NCBI RefSeq assembly: GCF_900101025.1
Contig: NZ_FMUH01000004.1
Coordinates: 186,001-250,000 of the forward strand
Source of the DNA: Klenkia marina
Lineage (GTDB): Bacteria; Actinomycetota; Actinomycetes; Mycobacteriales; Geodermatophilaceae
Length of the DNA stretch: 64,000 nucleotides
Reading direction: 5' to 3'
Notes under the pieces: model-generated
The model's input: only the letters and a program-made list of their open reading frames with translations
Told to the model about the DNA's origin: nothing
The model's database searches: none
Part shown: piece by piece, positions 7,001 through 15,894 of the stretch
Layout: each line of letters starts with the position of its first letter
Position numbering within the stretch: position 1 is the first letter of the stretch
Translations under genes and position numbers: made by a program

Positions 7001-9443
<2,443 letters not shown>

Positions 9444-9460
9444 CCCGCAGCACGACCTGA

Positions 9461-9500
9461 CCGGCGGCCGGTCACCCCTCCCGGGGTGGCCGGCCGCCGG
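9461..9500 (+). terminator. Hairpin after atpD, probable bidirectional terminator
   Basis: An 18-bp stem (left arm CCGGCGGCCGGTCACCCC) with a TCCC loop contains a single U-G wobble. It starts 18 nt after the atpD stop and ends 27 nt before the end of the convergent transporter gene. There is no U-tract, as is common in high-GC actinobacteria. It would separate atpD transcription from everything downstream, including atpC. Confidence 0.7.
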
Positions 9501-9526
9501 CGTGTGCGGGCAGCGCGCCGGGGTGC

Positions 9527-10378
9527 CTACTGCCGGTGGTGCTCGTCGAGCAGCTCGTCGGCCGGGACGGTGGGCACCCCGAACCGGGCCAGGCAGATCG
9601 CGGCGCCGACGGTGACGACGAAGCCGAGCACGGCCAGCCACCCGAGGCCGGGCACCGTCTGGTCGCCGACCGCCAGGCCCAGCCCCGCGCCGAGCACCGA
9701 CTCCGAGGCGACCATCGTCGCCGTGACCACGACGACCGCGCCCCGCTGCAGGGCCAGTGCGCCCGCCACCAGCCCGGTGAGGCCGGCCACCCCCACGGCC
9801 CACGCGGCCGGGTCGCCCAGGACGCCGGGCACGGTCACCGGCGCCAGCACGCGGGCGGCCAGCGACAGCACCCCGAACGCGACCCCGGCCAGCACGCCCA
9901 GCGCGGCGCCGGATGCCCCGAGGCGGGTCCCCACGGCCACCGCGACGGCGCTGAGGCCCGCCGCGGCCAGCGCGCACCAGGACACCCACGTGGGCACCTG
10001 CTCGGCCACCGACGGCTGCGCGGCCACCGCGACGCCCACCAGGCCGCCGGCGAGCGCCACCAGGGCGACCACCTCGCGGGCGCGCAACCGCGAGCCGAGC
10101 AGCACCGCGGCCAGCACGGCGGTCACGCCCAGGCTGCTGGCGCGACCGGCCTGCACCAGGAACAGCGGCAGCGCGCGGACGGCGACCAGGGACGCCAGGA
10201 ACGACACCCCGACGAGCGCGGTGCCGACCAGGTAGCGCGGGTCCCGGGCCAGGCCACCCAGGAAGCCGGCGACGCGCTCGGCCGAGGACCGACCGACCGC
10301 CGAGGCCTGCAGCACCGCCGCGGCCCCCGAGCACAGCGCGGCGGCGACGAGGGCGAGGGCGGACACCAGCACGGGCAC
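9527..10378 (-). CDS. DMT-superfamily (EamA-like) membrane transporter
   Basis: The protein has about 283 residues and roughly ten hydrophobic segments rich in Ala, Val, Gly and Leu, arranged as two similar halves (MPVLVSALALVAAALCSGAA and the second half from about residue 135). This is the drug/metabolite transporter layout. GTG at 10378 is the longest start, but GGAGG ends right against it and lies 5 nt before an in-frame GTG at 10372, so the real start is probably two codons later. It diverges from the glycan operon that begins 115 nt away. DMT proteins include the polyprenyl-phosphate-aminosugar flippases ArnE/ArnF, so a flippase role beside these glycosyltransferases is possible but unproven; metabolite export is the alternative. 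Confidence 0.72.
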   Translation of the reverse strand: MPVLVSALALVAAALCSGAAAVLQASAVGRSSAERVAGFLGGLARDPRYLVGTALVGVSFLASLVAVRALPLFLVQAGRASSLGVTAVLAAVLLGSRLRAREVVALVALAGGLVGVAVAAQPSVAEQVPTWVSWCALAAAGLSAVAVAVGTRLGASGAALGVLAGVAFGVLSLAARVLAPVTVPGVLGDPAAWAVGVAGLTGLVAGALALQRGAVVVVTATMVASESVLGAGLGLAVGDQTVPGLGWLAVLGFVVTVGAAICLARFGVPTVPADELLDEHHRQ

Positions 10379-10480
10379 CTCCGGGGTCGGCGAGCGGGGC
10401 GACGCACGTCACGTCCGTCCCGTGGGCCCCGGGGACCCTACCGACACGCGCCTGTTCACCGATCTGCCAGGTCGGCCCCC

Positions 10481-10486
10481 TAGGGT
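10481..10486 (+). promoter_or_regulatory. -10 box (TAGGGT), predicted leaderless promoter of the glycan operon
   Basis: TAGGGT is followed by 7 nt and the GTG of the first glycosyltransferase, and no ribosome binding site is present. It would drive the five coupled genes up to 14965. Confidence 0.6.
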
Positions 10487-10493
10487 GCCTGCC

Positions 10494-11747
10494 GTGATCG
10501 ATGCACCCGCCCGCGCCGAGGGCCTCGTCGTCCGGAGGCTGCCGGCCTTCGCGCTGGCCGCCTTCCTGCTGCTGGCGGTCGTCGTGGGCGTGGTGGCCTC
10601 GCTGGCCTACCCGGGCCGCCCGGAGCTCGGCCTCGACGGGCCGTGGTGGTTGGACGCCCTGTTCCAGGGCGACTCGGGGTGGTACTTCTCGATCGCGTCG
10701 CAGGGGTACTCCTACACCCCGGGTGTGCAGTCCCCGATCGCGTTCTTCCCGGCCTACCCCGTCACGGTCCACCTGCTGGGCGAGCTGATGGGTGGTGACT
10801 TCTCCACGGCGGCGGGCGTGCTGACCCTGGTGTTCGCCGGCGCGGTCACCGTGCTCTTCGCGTCCTGGATCCGCACCCGGGTCGCCCCCCGCACGGCCGT
10901 CGTCGCGGTCGGGCTGCTCCTGCTCTACCCGTACAGCTTCTTCCTCTACGGCAGCGGCTACAGCGACGCGCTGTTCCTGCTGACCGCGCTGGGGGCGTTC
11001 GCCCTGCTGGAGCGTCGGCAGTACGTGCTGGCCGGGCTGGTGGGCATCCTGGCCACCGCGGGCCGCCCCATCGGCATCGCGGTCACCGCAGGTCTGGCCG
11101 TGCGCGCGCTGGAGCTGCTGGCCCAGCGCCGCACGGCACAGCACGACCCCGACCCCGACCCCGATCCCGACCGGGCCGGTGCCGGGTCGCCGGGCCGGCC
11201 CGTCCCGCTGCGCGCGCTGGTGGCCGCGCTGCGCGACGTGGGCTGGCGCGAGGTGAGCCTGCTGGTCTCGGTCGCCGGTCTGGTCGGCTGGATGGTCTAC
11301 CTCGGCGAGCGCTTCGGCGACCCGCTGGCCTTCGCCACCGTGCAGGGGGCCCCGGGCTGGAACCAGGGGAGCGGGCCCTTCACCTGGTTCAAGGGACCGT
11401 TCGTGGGCAGCGTGCTGTCCCTGGACTGGGACGTCCTGGTGCTGATCGTGCCGCAGGCCCTCATGTGCGGGCTGGCGGTGCTGCTCGTGCGCACCTGCTG
11501 GAAGCGGTTCGGCTGGGGCTACACCGCCTTCGCGGTGGTCTCCATCGCCATCCCGATCATCGGCACGAAGGACTTCATGGGCGGTGGCCGCTACGTGCTG
11601 GCCGCCTTCCCGCTGCTCGCCGCGGCCGCCGTCGTCCTCACCGGGGATCGCCGTCCGCGGTGGCTGGCTCCGGCGGTGCTGGCCGTGCTCGGGGTCGGTC
11701 TGGTGATCGCCACCGTGGCCTATGTTCACGGGGTGGAGGTCTCGTGA
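10494..11747 (+). CDS. Integral membrane mannosyltransferase-like protein (GT-C fold, PIG-V-like)
   Basis: This polytopic membrane protein of 417 residues has about ten hydrophobic segments. Between the first two lies GDSGWYFSIASQGYS followed by SPIAFFPAYPV, which resembles the W-D-x-x-W-Y/FFPLYP signature of PIG-V/GPI18-type mannosyltransferases that use polyprenyl-phosphate sugars outside the membrane. A GAC/CCC-rich stretch encodes a short DPDPDPDPD run near residue 220 in a cytoplasmic loop. GTG was chosen because a TAGGGT box lies 7 nt before it. Four downstream genes are coupled to it by 4-bp GTGA overlaps. The sugar and acceptor are unknown; in context I infer transfer of a polyprenyl-linked sugar to a wall polymer or lipid. 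Confidence 0.75.
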   Translation: MIDAPARAEGLVVRRLPAFALAAFLLLAVVVGVVASLAYPGRPELGLDGPWWLDALFQGDSGWYFSIASQGYSYTPGVQSPIAFFPAYPVTVHLLGELMGGDFSTAAGVLTLVFAGAVTVLFASWIRTRVAPRTAVVAVGLLLLYPYSFFLYGSGYSDALFLLTALGAFALLERRQYVLAGLVGILATAGRPIGIAVTAGLAVRALELLAQRRTAQHDPDPDPDPDRAGAGSPGRPVPLRALVAALRDVGWREVSLLVSVAGLVGWMVYLGERFGDPLAFATVQGAPGWNQGSGPFTWFKGPFVGSVLSLDWDVLVLIVPQALMCGLAVLLVRTCWKRFGWGYTAFAVVSIAIPIIGTKDFMGGGRYVLAAFPLLAAAAVVLTGDRRPRWLAPAVLAVLGVGLVIATVAYVHGVEVS

Positions 11748-12493
11748 AGGGCGCACCGCCTGTCCAGCTGCTGTCGGTCTTCTTCCCCATGTGGAACGAG
11801 GAGGAGTACGTCGAGCGGGCCGTGCGCGCGGCCGAGGAGGAGTGCCAGCGCCTGCAGGGCCTGGACGAGATCGCCGAGTACGAGCTCGTCATCATCGACG
11901 ACGCCTCCACCGACGGCACCCCGCAGATCGCCGACGACCTCGCTGCGGCAGACCCGCGCGTCCGGGTCGTGCACCACCCGGTGAACCGGGGGCTCGGCGG
12001 GGCCATCAAGACCGGGTTCGCCTCCGTCCGCGGGGACGTGGTGCTCTACACCGACGCCGACCTGCCCTTCGAGATGCTCGAGCTCGGCCGCGCGCTGCGG
12101 GTGCTGCGGCACTACGAGGCCGACATGGTCTCCGCCTACCGCCTCGACCGCACGGGCGAGGGCCCGCGCCGCGCGGTCTACTCCTTCGTCTACAACGGGC
12201 TCATCGCCCGGCTGTTCGGCACCCGGGTGCGCGACATCAACTTCGCGTTCAAGCTGGTGCGCCGCAGCGTGCTCGAGGCCGCCCGGCCGGTCAGCGAGGG
12301 CTCCTTCATCGATGCCGAGCTGGTCATCCGTGCCCAGCGGCTGGGCTTCCACATCGTGCAGATCGGCGTCGACTACTTCCCCCGCACCCGCGGGGTGTCC
12401 ACGCTGAGCTCGCCGGCGGTCATCCGCCGCATGCTCACCGAGATGCGCGAGCTCCGCAGCGACCTCGACCAACTGGCCCCGAGGAAGCGGTGA
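11744..12493 (+). CDS. GT2 glycosyltransferase, polyprenyl-phosphate sugar synthase type
   Basis: This 249-residue GT-A protein belongs to the dolichol-phosphate mannosyltransferase-like group. It has SVFFPMWNEEEYVERAV at the N terminus, VIIDDASTDGTPQIADD, the VNRGLGGAIKTGF block and the metal-binding DXD as YTDADLPFE near residue 106. No transmembrane segment follows the catalytic domain, so it is a minimal DPM1-type enzyme that would move a sugar from a nucleotide donor to a polyprenyl phosphate on the cytoplasmic face. Francisella FlmF2 and mycobacterial PpgS are GT2 enzymes doing this with GalNAc (established knowledge); the sugar used here cannot be read from sequence. Start and stop both overlap neighbours by GTGA. 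Confidence 0.85.
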   Translation: MKGAPPVQLLSVFFPMWNEEEYVERAVRAAEEECQRLQGLDEIAEYELVIIDDASTDGTPQIADDLAAADPRVRVVHHPVNRGLGGAIKTGFASVRGDVVLYTDADLPFEMLELGRALRVLRHYEADMVSAYRLDRTGEGPRRAVYSFVYNGLIARLFGTRVRDINFAFKLVRRSVLEAARPVSEGSFIDAELVIRAQRLGFHIVQIGVDYFPRTRGVSTLSSPAVIRRMLTEMRELRSDLDQLAPRKR

Positions 12494-13326
12494 CCCGGCT
12501 GCTCGTGGTCAACGCCGACGACCTCGGCCTGACCGCCGGGGTCTGCCGTGCCGTGGCGCTGGCGCACACCGACGGTGTGGTCACCTCGACGTCGGTGCTG
12601 GCCGTGGGTCGGGCGTTCGACGACGCCGCCGCGGTGCTGCAGGACAACGAGGAGCTCGGGCTCGGCGCGCACCTGGCCATCGTGGGGGAGGACCCGCCGC
12701 TGCTCACCGCACGCGAGGTGCCCACCCTCGTCGACCGCTCGGGCAGGTTCCCGCTGTCCTACCGCACCGTGGTGGCCCGCGGGGTGGCCGGGCGGATCGA
12801 CCCGGCCGACGTGGCTCGCGAGTTCCGGGCCCAGATCGAGCGGGTGCGGGGCATCGGCCGTCCGGTGACCCACCTGGACACCCACCAGCACACCCACCTG
12901 TGGCCGGCGGTCGCCGACGTGGTGGTCGACCTCGCCGGGGAGGCCGGCATCGGGGCGGTGCGGCTGCCCGGCAGCGCCCGGCGGGGCCCGCTGGGCGCCG
13001 GCGTGCGGGTGCTGGCCGGCCGGTTGCGGCAGCGGCTGGCCTCGGCCGGGGTCGCCACGACGGAGGCCTACGCCGGTCTCGACGAGGCCGGCCGGCTCGA
13101 CGCCCGCGGGCTCGACGTGGCCCTGCGCCGGGCCGCGCGGGCCGACGTCGGGTCGCTCGAGGTCAACGCGCACCCCGGGGAGGCCGGCGACCCCGACCTG
13201 GCCCGGTTCGACTGGGACTACCGATGGGCGGACGAGACGACCATGCTGACCGACCCGGTGACGCGCCGGCTGGTGATCGCCCACGGTTTCCGGCTGGGCA
13301 CCTTCGCCGACCTGGTGGCGGCGTGA
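12490..13326 (+). CDS. ChbG/YdjC-family carbohydrate deacetylase
   Basis: This 278-residue protein has the metal-site motifs of the YdjC family: LLVVNADDLGLTAG at the N terminus (the two aspartates), LGLGAHLAIVG near residue 56, THLDTHQHTHLWPAV near 130 and LEVNAHPGE near 222. Family members remove the acetyl group from N-acetylhexosamines: ChbG acts on chitooligosaccharides, and Francisella NaxD acts on undecaprenyl-phosphate-GalNAc made by a GT2 enzyme. The gene lies directly between a GT2 gene and a methyltransferase gene with GTGA overlaps at both ends, which favours a NaxD-like role on a lipid-linked sugar over chitin breakdown. There is no signal peptide, so it acts in the cytoplasm. 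Confidence 0.85.
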   Translation: MTRLLVVNADDLGLTAGVCRAVALAHTDGVVTSTSVLAVGRAFDDAAAVLQDNEELGLGAHLAIVGEDPPLLTAREVPTLVDRSGRFPLSYRTVVARGVAGRIDPADVAREFRAQIERVRGIGRPVTHLDTHQHTHLWPAVADVVVDLAGEAGIGAVRLPGSARRGPLGAGVRVLAGRLRQRLASAGVATTEAYAGLDEAGRLDARGLDVALRRAARADVGSLEVNAHPGEAGDPDLARFDWDYRWADETTMLTDPVTRRLVIAHGFRLGTFADLVAA

Positions 13327-13991
13327 GCCGGCTGCCCGACCGGGCGGCCCGCCGTGCCTTCGCGGCCTACCGCAACGCTCCGGTCGGCCACCGCGCGCAC
13401 CTGCTCGTCCGCTGGGTGACCTGCCCCTTCGCCCCGCTCGTCGACGTCCTGCCCACCCACGGCCGGGTGCTGGAGGTCGGGTGCGGGCACGGCCTGTTCA
13501 GCACCTACCTGGCCGAGCGGTCGCCGGGCCTCGCCGTCCACGGGGTCGACATCGACGCGGACAAGGTCGCCGTCGCCGCGGCCAGCACCCGGCCGGGGGA
13601 CCGGCGCTCGTTCGCCGTCGCGCCCTCCGGTGCGGTGCCCGCGGGTCCGTGGGACGCCGTCGTGCTGGTCGACGTGCTGTACCTGCTCGACGCCGCGGGC
13701 CAGCGTGCCCTGCTCGAGGAGTGCGCGGCGCGGCTGGCGCCCGGCGGGGTGCTGGTGGTCAAGGACATGGCGGTGACCCCGCTCTGGAAGGCCCGGGTCA
13801 ACGCGCTGCAGGAGACGGTGTCCGTGCGGCTGCTGGGGATCACCGAGGGCTCGCGCGACTTCGACTTCGTGCCCCCCGACGAGCGCGCCCGCTGGCTGGT
13901 CGCGGCCGGTCTGGTCGACGTGCGCAGCCGGCGGCTGGACCGCGGGCGGGCACACCCGCACCACCTGCTGGTCGGGCGGGCGGCGTCGTGA
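13323..13991 (+). CDS. Class I SAM-dependent methyltransferase
   Basis: The protein has 222 residues. Motif I, binding S-adenosylmethionine, is VLEVGCGHGLFSTYL near residue 50, motif II/acidic loop is HGVDIDADKV near 76, and DAVVLVDVLYLLD plus LAPGGVLVVKDM form motifs IV-V. The substrate is not visible. It is the fourth of five coupled genes, so a small molecule or lipid-linked sugar of the same pathway is the likely target, such as O-methylation of the transferred glycan. GTGA overlaps occur on both sides. Confidence 0.82.
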   Translation: MSRLPDRAARRAFAAYRNAPVGHRAHLLVRWVTCPFAPLVDVLPTHGRVLEVGCGHGLFSTYLAERSPGLAVHGVDIDADKVAVAAASTRPGDRRSFAVAPSGAVPAGPWDAVVLVDVLYLLDAAGQRALLEECAARLAPGGVLVVKDMAVTPLWKARVNALQETVSVRLLGITEGSRDFDFVPPDERARWLVAAGLVDVRSRRLDRGRAHPHHLLVGRAAS

Positions 13992-14965
13992 GCGGACTGC
14001 CCGCAGTCGTGGTCACCGGTGGCGCGGGGTTCATCGGGTCGCACGTCTGCACCGCCCTGGCCGAGGCCGGGCACCGGGTCGTGGCCGTCGACGACCTGTC
14101 CACCGGGTCCGCCGACAACCTGGTCGGCGTGCCCGAGGTCGACCTCGTGGTCGCCGACGTCGCCGCCCCCGGTCTGGTCGACGTGCTGCGCTCGGTGGGC
14201 GCCGGCGTCGTGTGCCACCTGGCCGCGGCCATCGACGTCCGGGCCTCGGTCGCCGACCCGGTCGCCGACGCCACCCGCAACGTCGTGGGCACCGTGGCCG
14301 TGCTGCAGGCAGCCGTCGCGGCAGGGGTCGGCAAGGTGGTCTTCGCCTCCTCGGGCGGCTCCATCTACGGCGCCGCCACCCCGCCTCCGGTGGCCGAGGA
14401 CGCCGAGATCGCCCCCGAGTCGCCGTACGCGGCCAGCAAGGCGGCGGCCGAGCTGTGGCTGCAGACGTTCCGCCGGCTACACGGGCTGCGCTGGACCGCG
14501 CTGGCCCTGGCCAACGTCTACGGACCCCGGCAGGACCCGGCGGGCGAGGCCGGGGTCATCTCGCTGTTCGCCGACGCCCTGCTGGCCGGCCGGTCGACCA
14601 CGATCTACGGGGACGGCAGCCAGACCCGCGACTTCGTCCACGTCGGCGACGTCGCGGCCGCGTTCCGGGCCGCGTCCGGCGAGCTGGCCGAGGACTGCCG
14701 GCTCAACATCGGCACCGGCGTCGAGACCTCCGTGCGCGAGCTGCACACGCTGCTGGCCGGGCTCTGCGACGCCCCCGACCGCCCGGCCACCGCGGCGGCG
14801 CGGGCGGGGGAGCTGCAGCGCTCGGCGCTGGATGCCCGGCGGGCGCGGGCGGTGCTGGGCTGGACCCCGCAGGTGCCCCTGGCCGAGGGGCTGGCCGGCA
14901 CGGTCGAGTGGATCGGCTCACGTGCGTCGGTGTCCGCGCTGCGGGGTCCCGAGGGCCCCCGATAG
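13988..14965 (+). CDS. NAD-dependent sugar epimerase/dehydratase (extended SDR, GalE-like)
   Basis: This 325-residue extended short-chain dehydrogenase starts with the Rossmann motif VVVTGGAGFIGSHVC; the active-site serine is in SSGGSIYG and the Tyr-Lys pair is in SPYAASKAA. VYGPRQDP and YGDGSQTRDFVHVGDVA are typical of UDP-glucose/UDP-GlcNAc 4-epimerases and related dehydratases. As last gene of the coupled operon it may supply the nucleotide sugar used by the GT2 enzyme; UDP-GlcNAc to UDP-GalNAc conversion would fit, but specificity cannot be assigned from sequence. The stop codon TAG forms part of a TAGCAT hexamer that could serve as a -10 box for the next gene. Confidence 0.85.
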   Translation: MSGLPAVVVTGGAGFIGSHVCTALAEAGHRVVAVDDLSTGSADNLVGVPEVDLVVADVAAPGLVDVLRSVGAGVVCHLAAAIDVRASVADPVADATRNVVGTVAVLQAAVAAGVGKVVFASSGGSIYGAATPPPVAEDAEIAPESPYAASKAAAELWLQTFRRLHGLRWTALALANVYGPRQDPAGEAGVISLFADALLAGRSTTIYGDGSQTRDFVHVGDVAAAFRAASGELAEDCRLNIGTGVETSVRELHTLLAGLCDAPDRPATAAARAGELQRSALDARRARAVLGWTPQVPLAEGLAGTVEWIGSRASVSALRGPEGPR

Positions 14966-15006
14966 CATCGCGGGCGGTCGGGGCCGCGGCGCTGCGAACC
15001 GGCCGT

Positions 15007-15040
15007 CCCCCACCACCCCACCCTTTCGGGTGGTCGTGGG
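15007..15040 (+). terminator. Hairpin with CCACCC/GGGTGG stem and TTTC loop
   Basis: A 6-bp core stem with a TTTC loop is extended by a bulge and about six further pairs, 41 nt after the epimerase stop. It may end the glycan operon transcript or lie in the leader of the next gene. There is no U-tract. Confidence 0.35.
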
Positions 15041-15126
15041 CGCCCGACCTCACCCCGAGGTCGGCCGGGGCCGAAGATCACCGCGAGAGCCCGGACGACC
15101 CACCGGGCACGGCAGGGAGAAGCAGC

Positions 15127-15396
15127 GTGGACGACAGCCAGCAGACCGGACCCGCTCCGGTGCTCGGCGCCGCACCGTTGCTGACCCCGACCGGTGAGCC
15201 GACCGCGGACCACCCGTCGGGCCCGCTGCCGCTCACGGGCACCGGTGACGAGTCCGACTGGTGCTGGCCGCCCTACGCCCCGCCGCCGCCGGCCGACGTG
15301 CCGCGCTTCGACCTGGAGGAGTGGGCGCCGAGCTCGGTCGTCCGGCGTCCGCTCGTCCGGATGGGCCGCTGGACCCTGCTCTACCGCCGGGGCTGA
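15127..15396 (+). CDS. Small proline-rich hypothetical protein
   Basis: The protein has 89 residues and I do not recognise it. The first half is Pro/Gly/Thr-rich and probably unfolded; the second half has ESDWCWPPYAPPPPADVP and ends with VVRRPLVRMGRWTLLYRRG, a short basic and aromatic tail that could touch a membrane. GTG was chosen because GGGAGA lies at the right distance and codon use upstream is poor. It sits between the glycan operon and atpC, but nothing ties it to either. Confidence 0.5.
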   Translation: MDDSQQTGPAPVLGAAPLLTPTGEPTADHPSGPLPLTGTGDESDWCWPPYAPPPPADVPRFDLEEWAPSSVVRRPLVRMGRWTLLYRRG

Positions 15397-15501: not shown

Positions 15502-15894
15502 GTGGCGACCCTGCAGGTCGAGCTCGTGGCCGTGGAGCGCAAGATCTGGTCCGGTGAGGCCTCGATGGTCATCGCCCGCACCACCGAGGGTGAGCTCGGC
15601 GTCCTGCCCGGCCACGCCCCGCTGCTCGGCGAGCTGGCGCCCGGTGGCGTCGTCACCATCCGCGTGGCCGACGGCGAGGACCTCGTCGTGGCTGCCCACG
15701 GTGGCTTCCTCTCGGTGACCGAACGCGGCGTGTCGATCCTCGCCGAGACCGCCGAGATCTCGACCGAGATCGACGTCGAGCGCGCCCGGGAGTCCCTGCG
15801 CCGCGCCGAGTCCGCCGCCGACGACGACGAGGAGGCGCTCGCCGCCGCCCGTCGCGCCCAGTCCCGGCTCCGCGCCGCCGGCCAGGCCGCCTGA
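15502..15894 (+). CDS. atpC: F1Fo ATP synthase subunit epsilon (displaced from atpD)
   Basis: Epsilon couples the rotor to F1 and regulates ATP hydrolysis. It has 130 residues: an N-terminal beta-sandwich with [35 protein letters not shown] and [20 protein letters not shown], then two C-terminal helices (from about 88) rich in Ala, Glu and Arg. GTG lies 6 nt after GAGGAG. It lies 6,058 nt downstream of atpD, beyond a terminator-like hairpin and an unrelated operon, so it probably has its own promoter; TATTGT near 15432 is a weak candidate. The genes that follow match the mycobacterial order after atpC. Confidence 0.95.

Follow-up and report, generated by a model that had tools for sequence, protein, structure and literature searches.

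The window analysed here, 64,000 nucleotides of Klenkia marina (contig NZ_FMUH01000004.1, positions 186,001 to 250,000), carries a cassette of glycosylation genes between the ATP synthase genes atpD and atpC. The cassette encodes a membrane glycosyltransferase (GT) of the GT-C type, a GT2 glycosyltransferase, a YdjC-family deacetylase, a class I methyltransferase and a sugar-nucleotide epimerase, with a gene for a multi-helix membrane protein on the opposite strand. These genes probably form a self-contained decoration cassette that moves horizontally and directs an undecaprenyl-phosphate-linked hexosamine donor pathway, resembling that of FlmF2, NaxD and FlmK with an extra methyl step and transfer to an extracytoplasmic acceptor.

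Linkage and distribution of the cassette

A first-pass annotation had described five genes (10494-14965) joined by four successive GTGA overlaps, and direct reading of the sequence bore this out, with stop/start overlaps at 11744-11747, 12490-12493, 13323-13326 and 13988-13991. To compare loci, profiles were built from alignments and YdjC genes scoring at least 270 bits were taken as cassette-grade (n = 33 loci); genes in the fetched loci, which are GC-rich, were called by codon score and six-frame profiles. A GT-C gene lay nearby in 31 of the 33 loci, the same GT2 in 30 and the methyltransferase in 30; among the loci that break the pattern are a 3.7-kb fragment (L022) and a lone gene (L017). 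Loci of weaker YdjC genes had neither GT-C nor methyltransferase alongside. More than 20 loci, with identities of 35-88%, repeat this gene order, and the association of the genes is therefore not a matter of chance. The divergent membrane protein (19 of 33 cassettes, every one of them from Actinomycetes) and the epimerase are present in part of the loci only, and the functional core is therefore GT-C, GT2, YdjC and methyltransferase.

The core has a patchy distribution across Actinomycetota, Myxococcota and Desulfobacterota. Its genes run head to tail in actinobacteria, GT2-YdjC faces methyltransferase-GT-C in Myxococcus and Archangium, and the methyltransferase is reversed in two Desulfobacterales. 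Cassette-type YdjC was found in 11 of 115 Geodermatophilaceae genomes and any YdjC protein in 11 of 250 genomes of the order; among 396 genomes sampled across the phylum, four YdjC proteins scored above 300 bits, each adjoining a GT-C above 300 bits. Some distant YdjC matches have internal stop codons, and in the two checked (L133, L134) the profile match spans no stop. Where the cassette lies elsewhere, the flanking genes of the three loci checked (for glycogen debranching, GGDEF, luciferase-like, thiolase and URO-D proteins) are unrelated and give no hint of an acceptor or pathway.

The lone gene of L017 (5193-6008, 329 bits) lies on a 9.4-kb Ilumatobacteraceae contig from which the other cassette genes are absent. 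Extra copies of the cassette GT-C were seen at L131 4834-5955 and 8252-9397 and at L140 4807-6012; one adjoins the cassette in G488 and one stands alone in G248.

The features of the locus are as follows (SAM, S-adenosylmethionine; SDR, short-chain dehydrogenase/reductase; DPM, dolichyl-phosphate mannose; DMT, drug/metabolite transporter; ORF, open reading frame).
8001-9443, + strand: atpD (F1 beta), left flank; 97% identity with atpD of Modestobacter sp. Leaf380
9461-9500, + strand: strong hairpin 3' of atpD, from folding energy; a GC-rich counterpart is visible 3' of atpD in the empty-site locus L062
9511-14941, no strand: approximate inserted segment, from alignment to the empty site of G083 (L062)
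9527-10378, - strand: divergent multi-helix membrane protein, EamA/DMT-like, candidate flippase; homologue profiles and model
10494-11747, + strand: GT-C glycosyltransferase, PIG-V/ArnT-like fold; homologue profiles and model, invariant D60 (start 10494 picked because the N-terminus there aligns with homologue N-termini)
11744-12493, + strand: GT2, DPM1-like, without C-terminal membrane helices, candidate polyprenyl-phosphate hexosamine synthase; profile and solved relatives
12490-13326, + strand: YdjC/ChbG-family deacetylase, no signal peptide; profile and five invariant active-site residues
13323-13991, + strand: class I SAM methyltransferase, core cassette member; profile and linkage
13988-14965, + strand: SDR sugar-nucleotide 4-epimerase with Ser-Tyr-Lys triad, optional member; closest solved relative 7ys8
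15127-15396, + strand: small ORF upstream of atpC, conserved in Geodermatophilaceae, part of the atp locus and not of the cassette; comparison of family loci
15502-15894, + strand: atpC (F1 epsilon), right flank

Insertion between atpD and atpC

Among 30 Geodermatophilaceae atpC loci, the cassette lies between atpD and atpC only in the present genome and in Modestobacter sp. Leaf380, its nearest cassette-bearing relative and a member of the same genus; in the other 28, atpD (or its end) is followed by the small ORF and then by atpC. The 310-bp atpD-atpC gap of G083 (L062) is a clean empty site, in which adjacent stretches align to window positions 9448-9511 and 14941-15150. The two carriers stand apart when the atpC-murA region is used for a tree, while their cassettes group together (support 1.000), which suggests either that the insertion was ancestral in the genus and later lost, or that it shifted within the genus through flank recombination. 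The location inside the ATP synthase locus is thus as first annotated, but the setting does not carry meaning: because two genomes only have the cassette there and relatives show an empty site, with other hosts carrying it elsewhere, the ATP synthase locus is a landing place and no functional clue.

Two species of the genus carry the cassette here, one of its genes lying on the opposite strand, and such an insertion could in principle uncouple the epsilon subunit from the atp operon and thereby regulate ATP synthase. This is very improbable given that all other examined hosts carry the cassette elsewhere, that relatives show the plain atpD-atpC order, and that the hairpin-like repeat 3' of atpD (-66.2 kcal/mol for 9441-9526, z -4.97) is matched by a GC-rich inverted repeat at the same place in the empty-site relative L062. 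The small ORF at 15127-15396 encodes 89 amino acids with no family match and a conserved C-terminal half (in the window, FDLEEWAPSSVVRRPLVRMGRWTLLYRRG), and was present between atpD and atpC in all Geodermatophilaceae atp loci inspected (L062-L090).

Enzymes of the cassette

Pfam scores upheld the earlier family calls for the GT2 (PF00535, 1.2e-30), YdjC (PF04794, 5.7e-56, 190.7 bits against a cut-off of 29.7), methyltransferase (PF13489, 2.3e-15, class I) and epimerase (PF01370, 5.7e-56). Solved relatives of the GT2 were sought with a profile built without two ArnC-like Desulfobacterales proteins. The best include ArnC, GtrB and DPM synthase; ArnC leads, with moderate scores, and the DPM synthase 5mlz aligned over the whole protein. 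The enzyme reaches none of the equivalog cut-offs, among them those of ArnC (NF007986, 61 of 529 bits) and PpgS (NF058614, 27.9 of 370 bits). In two Desulfobacterales loci (L018, 2934-3944; L021, 9040-9981) the GT2 slot of the cassette holds another GT2 subtype, with two C-terminal membrane helices and an ending in the ArnC/GtrB pattern. Such substitution by an ArnC-like GT2 supports the view that the slot belongs to a putative polyprenyl-phosphate sugar synthase.

YdjC residues D10, D11, H61, H132 and H228 correspond to D10, D11, H61, H125 and H206 of kpChbG and are invariant in 15 sequences; kpChbG R223 is not kept, with W or H at the aligned position. The protein matches ChbG (7vi8) at 2.4e-20 and lies below the ChbG equivalog (NF002559, 118.6 of 227 bits). 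With no export signal, and with its N-terminus already at the first strand of the fold, the enzyme presumably acts in the cytoplasm.

The GT-C protein alone matched no family above cut-off (best PF04188, PIG-V, E 0.0037) and its profile found no match among PDB sequences. Among 21 homologues, 10 matched PIG-V (best 2.3e-11) and six matched PMT_2. The AlphaFold model (predicted local distance difference test, pLDDT, 88.6) has a GT-C fold: the Foldseek top list consists entirely of GT-C enzymes (oligosaccharyltransferases, ALG9, ArnT, EmbC, PMT and glycosylphosphatidylinositol mannosyltransferase) at probability 1.00 and a moderate TM-score of about 0.45. Residue D60, part of the motif WLDxxxxxDSxWYxxIAxxGY, is the same in all 21 sequences and lies in the first outer loop, after the first transmembrane helix (TM1). 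Homologue profiles, model fold and this acidic residue together confirm the GT-C call.

The divergent gene had been read as a DMT flippase. A divergent membrane gene is indeed present; the DMT label is plausible but weak, as the protein itself has no Pfam match, nine homologues out of 14 gave EamA matches with E values of 0.1 or below, the best 9.1e-05, and its model gave no global fold match and a partial match to 6wk5, a small multidrug resistance (SMR) protein (TMt 0.69, E 1.6). As a candidate flippase it would serve part of the hosts.

The nearest PDB relatives of the methyltransferase are a mixture of N-, O- and lipid methyltransferases, which do not tell the target atom. The first-pass annotation had a methyl group added at some step, giving a methyl ether. 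The methyltransferase is present and is a near-invariant core member rather than an add-on; the ether was an assumption, and the methyl group could equally well sit on the freed amine.

The epimerase matches 7ys8 at 1.1e-83, and its Ser-Tyr-Lys triad aligns to S121, Y146 and K150 of that structure, whose residues are numbered like those of Rv3634c. Rv3634c has uridine diphosphate (UDP)-N-acetylgalactosamine (GalNAc) epimerase activity, with triad residues S121, Y146 and K150 (PMC5389812). Triad and close similarity predict an Rv3634c-type UDP-Gal/GalNAc 4-epimerase; other epimerases of the genome show only about 35% identity over long alignments. The gene lies directly 3' of the methyltransferase in the present genome, four other Geodermatophilaceae and one Pseudonocardiales metagenome-assembled genome, and weaker homologues lie beside some Cellulomonas cassettes.

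Proposed pathway and alternatives

In the proposed pathway, the GT2 would move an N-acetylhexosamine from its UDP-sugar to polyprenyl phosphate at the inner membrane face; where the linked epimerase is present, the loaded sugar would come from UDP-GalNAc. Cytoplasmic YdjC would strip the acetyl group from the lipid-linked sugar, and the methyltransferase would add a methyl group to the sugar, either at the amine so released or at a hydroxyl. Flipping of the lipid-linked sugar may fall to the divergent multi-helix protein in actinobacteria; transfer to an extracytoplasmic acceptor, which could be a glycolipid, lipoglycan, wall polymer or protein, would be the task of the GT-C. The core of this idea, a polyprenyl-phosphate amino sugar that is deacetylated and transferred by a GT-C, was that of the earlier annotation, and it gains support because the core linkage is conserved, the YdjC residues are intact, the GT2 is akin to ArnC, GtrB and DPM synthases, and an ArnC-like enzyme replaces it in Desulfobacterales.

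Several observations weigh against the pathway. GT2 matches also cover other GT2 types, mostly aligned over the nucleotide-binding half. The closest curated model for YdjC is HpnK (TIGR03473; 165.1 of 232.6 bits, below cut-off), which is associated with glycolipid and not with polyprenyl phosphate. The divergent membrane protein is absent in Myxococcota, Desulfobacterota and more distant actinobacterial loci, and the cassette has no linked gene for an acceptor. The epimerase is absent from Leaf380 and several other cassettes, and GalNAc is therefore not required; as a source of UDP-GalNAc it stands as an enzyme type but not as a required member.

A more specific version of the pathway, which we hold only tentatively, has a polyprenyl-phosphate-linked N-methylated hexosamine as its product: YdjC would free the amine, the methyltransferase would methylate it, and the GT-C would display it on the cell surface as a secondary or tertiary amine, the genes having been transferred among three phyla. 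Chemically this would be like NodB followed by NodS. The possible occurrence of 6-O-methyl-GalNAc in the M. xanthus O-antigen offers a lead. The literature on methylated galactosamine in Myxococcus gave nothing useful.

An end-product glycolipid is an unlikely alternative that draws on established systems. GpgS and GpgD make glucosaminyl-phosphatidylglycerol, HexS and HexD make aminohexosyl-hexosyldiradylglycerol, and operons of GT, deacetylase and flippase are established for such amino-glycolipids (PMC12713373, PMC10128005). By the same logic the GT2 and YdjC would make a free-hexosamine glycolipid, the membrane protein would flip it and the GT-C would add another sugar; that the best curated YdjC model, HpnK, is a lipid-linked case fits this. 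However, GpgSDF and HexSDF use other GT and deacetylase families and have no GT-C and no methyltransferase: GpgS is a GT4 and HexS is of the monogalactosyldiacylglycerol synthase type, whereas the cassette GT2 appears to group with polyprenyl-phosphate enzymes. The near-invariant GT-C partner likewise fits a polyprenyl-phosphate sugar donor and argues against an end-product lipid.

Less probable again is an ordinary polyprenyl-phosphate hexose (for example mannose) pathway of GT2 and GT-C, with YdjC and methyltransferase acting on a separate soluble metabolite and merely co-regulated. PIG-V, the family that the GT-C resembles, is known above all for mannosyl transfer, and the GT2 resembles DPM synthases, but in three phyla the four genes keep company whatever their arrangement (head to tail, convergent or split), and they are missing as a set. 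The match to ChbG with its conserved active-site residues could suggest chitooligosaccharide degradation or salvage; we give this almost no weight, as the cassette is without chitobiose phosphotransferase system, chitinase or glycosidase genes, the flanks of the three loci checked are unrelated, two glycosyltransferases are near-invariant partners and the score is short of the ChbG equivalog cut-off.

Comparison with known systems

The proposed undecaprenyl-phosphate-hexosamine pathway has its closest counterpart in Francisella, where FlmF2 is the GT2 that loads undecaprenyl phosphate (Und-P) and FlmK the GT-C transferase. NaxD removes the acetyl group from Und-P-GalNAc ahead of the transfer to lipid A (PMC10927774). 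FlmF2-NaxD-FlmK and the Acinetobacter NaxD system (galactosamine on lipid A) share with the cassette a GT2 that loads Und-P, as is predicted for the cassette enzyme, a YdjC-family deacetylase and a GT-C, a likeness of family and role. Beyond these, the cassette has a methyltransferase that is nearly always present, an epimerase that is optional and a divergent membrane protein, and its GT2 lacks C-terminal membrane helices in most members. Because most hosts are Gram-positive, the acceptor in these is not lipid A.

The aminoarabinose system ArnC-ArnD-ArnE/F-ArnT is similar in that ArnC is near the GT2 and ArnT has a GT-C fold; it differs in that ArnD is a polysaccharide-deacetylase-type deformylase, in having no methylation, and in ArnE/F, which are pairs of SMR-type proteins with four helices. 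In glucosaminyl hopanoid synthesis, HpnI and HpnK are a GT2 and a YdjC-family deacetylase acting on lipid-linked N-acetylglucosamine; the cassette YdjC falls below the HpnK model, and no HpnI-type match was reported for the GT2.

The mycobacterial and corynebacterial system (Rv3634c, PpgS Rv3631, Rv3632, Rv3779) also comprises a UDP-GalNAc epimerase, apparently of the same type as that of the cassette, a polyprenyl-phosphate-GalNAc synthase, de-N-acetylation and GT-C transfer, with no methyltransferase named. The first-pass parallel with it holds as analogy but not as homology: the cassette GT2 is not PpgS by its score, and the C. glutamicum control genome has a PpgS match and no YdjC, which means that the deacetylase of C. 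glutamicum, at least, must come from a different family. Arabinogalactan, the acceptor there, is unlikely in the Klenkia host because described Klenkia species have no arabinose among their whole-cell sugars (PMC5742155). Literature on galactosamine in Geodermatophilaceae walls yielded only sugar-utilisation and whole-cell sugar data.

New relative to the earlier description are a core that spans three phyla, with the methyltransferase indispensable and the epimerase optional, the empty insertion site, and the distinction between the cassette and the mycobacterial genes. The same chemistry has been proposed for galactosamine on arabinogalactan in corynebacteria and mycobacteria, where the flippase and deacetylase are reported as unidentified (PMC9671496); the cassette offers candidates for both roles in its own hosts. 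If the proposed pathway is correct, it is a new version of a known route to positive charge on the bacterial surface, and an N-methylated surface hexosamine, if present, would be a kind of cationic decoration that is not known from these bacteria. The cassette would then offer a genetic way into the question of how amino sugars, free and methylated, arrive at bacterial surfaces, where they alter charge, phage binding and peptide sensitivity.

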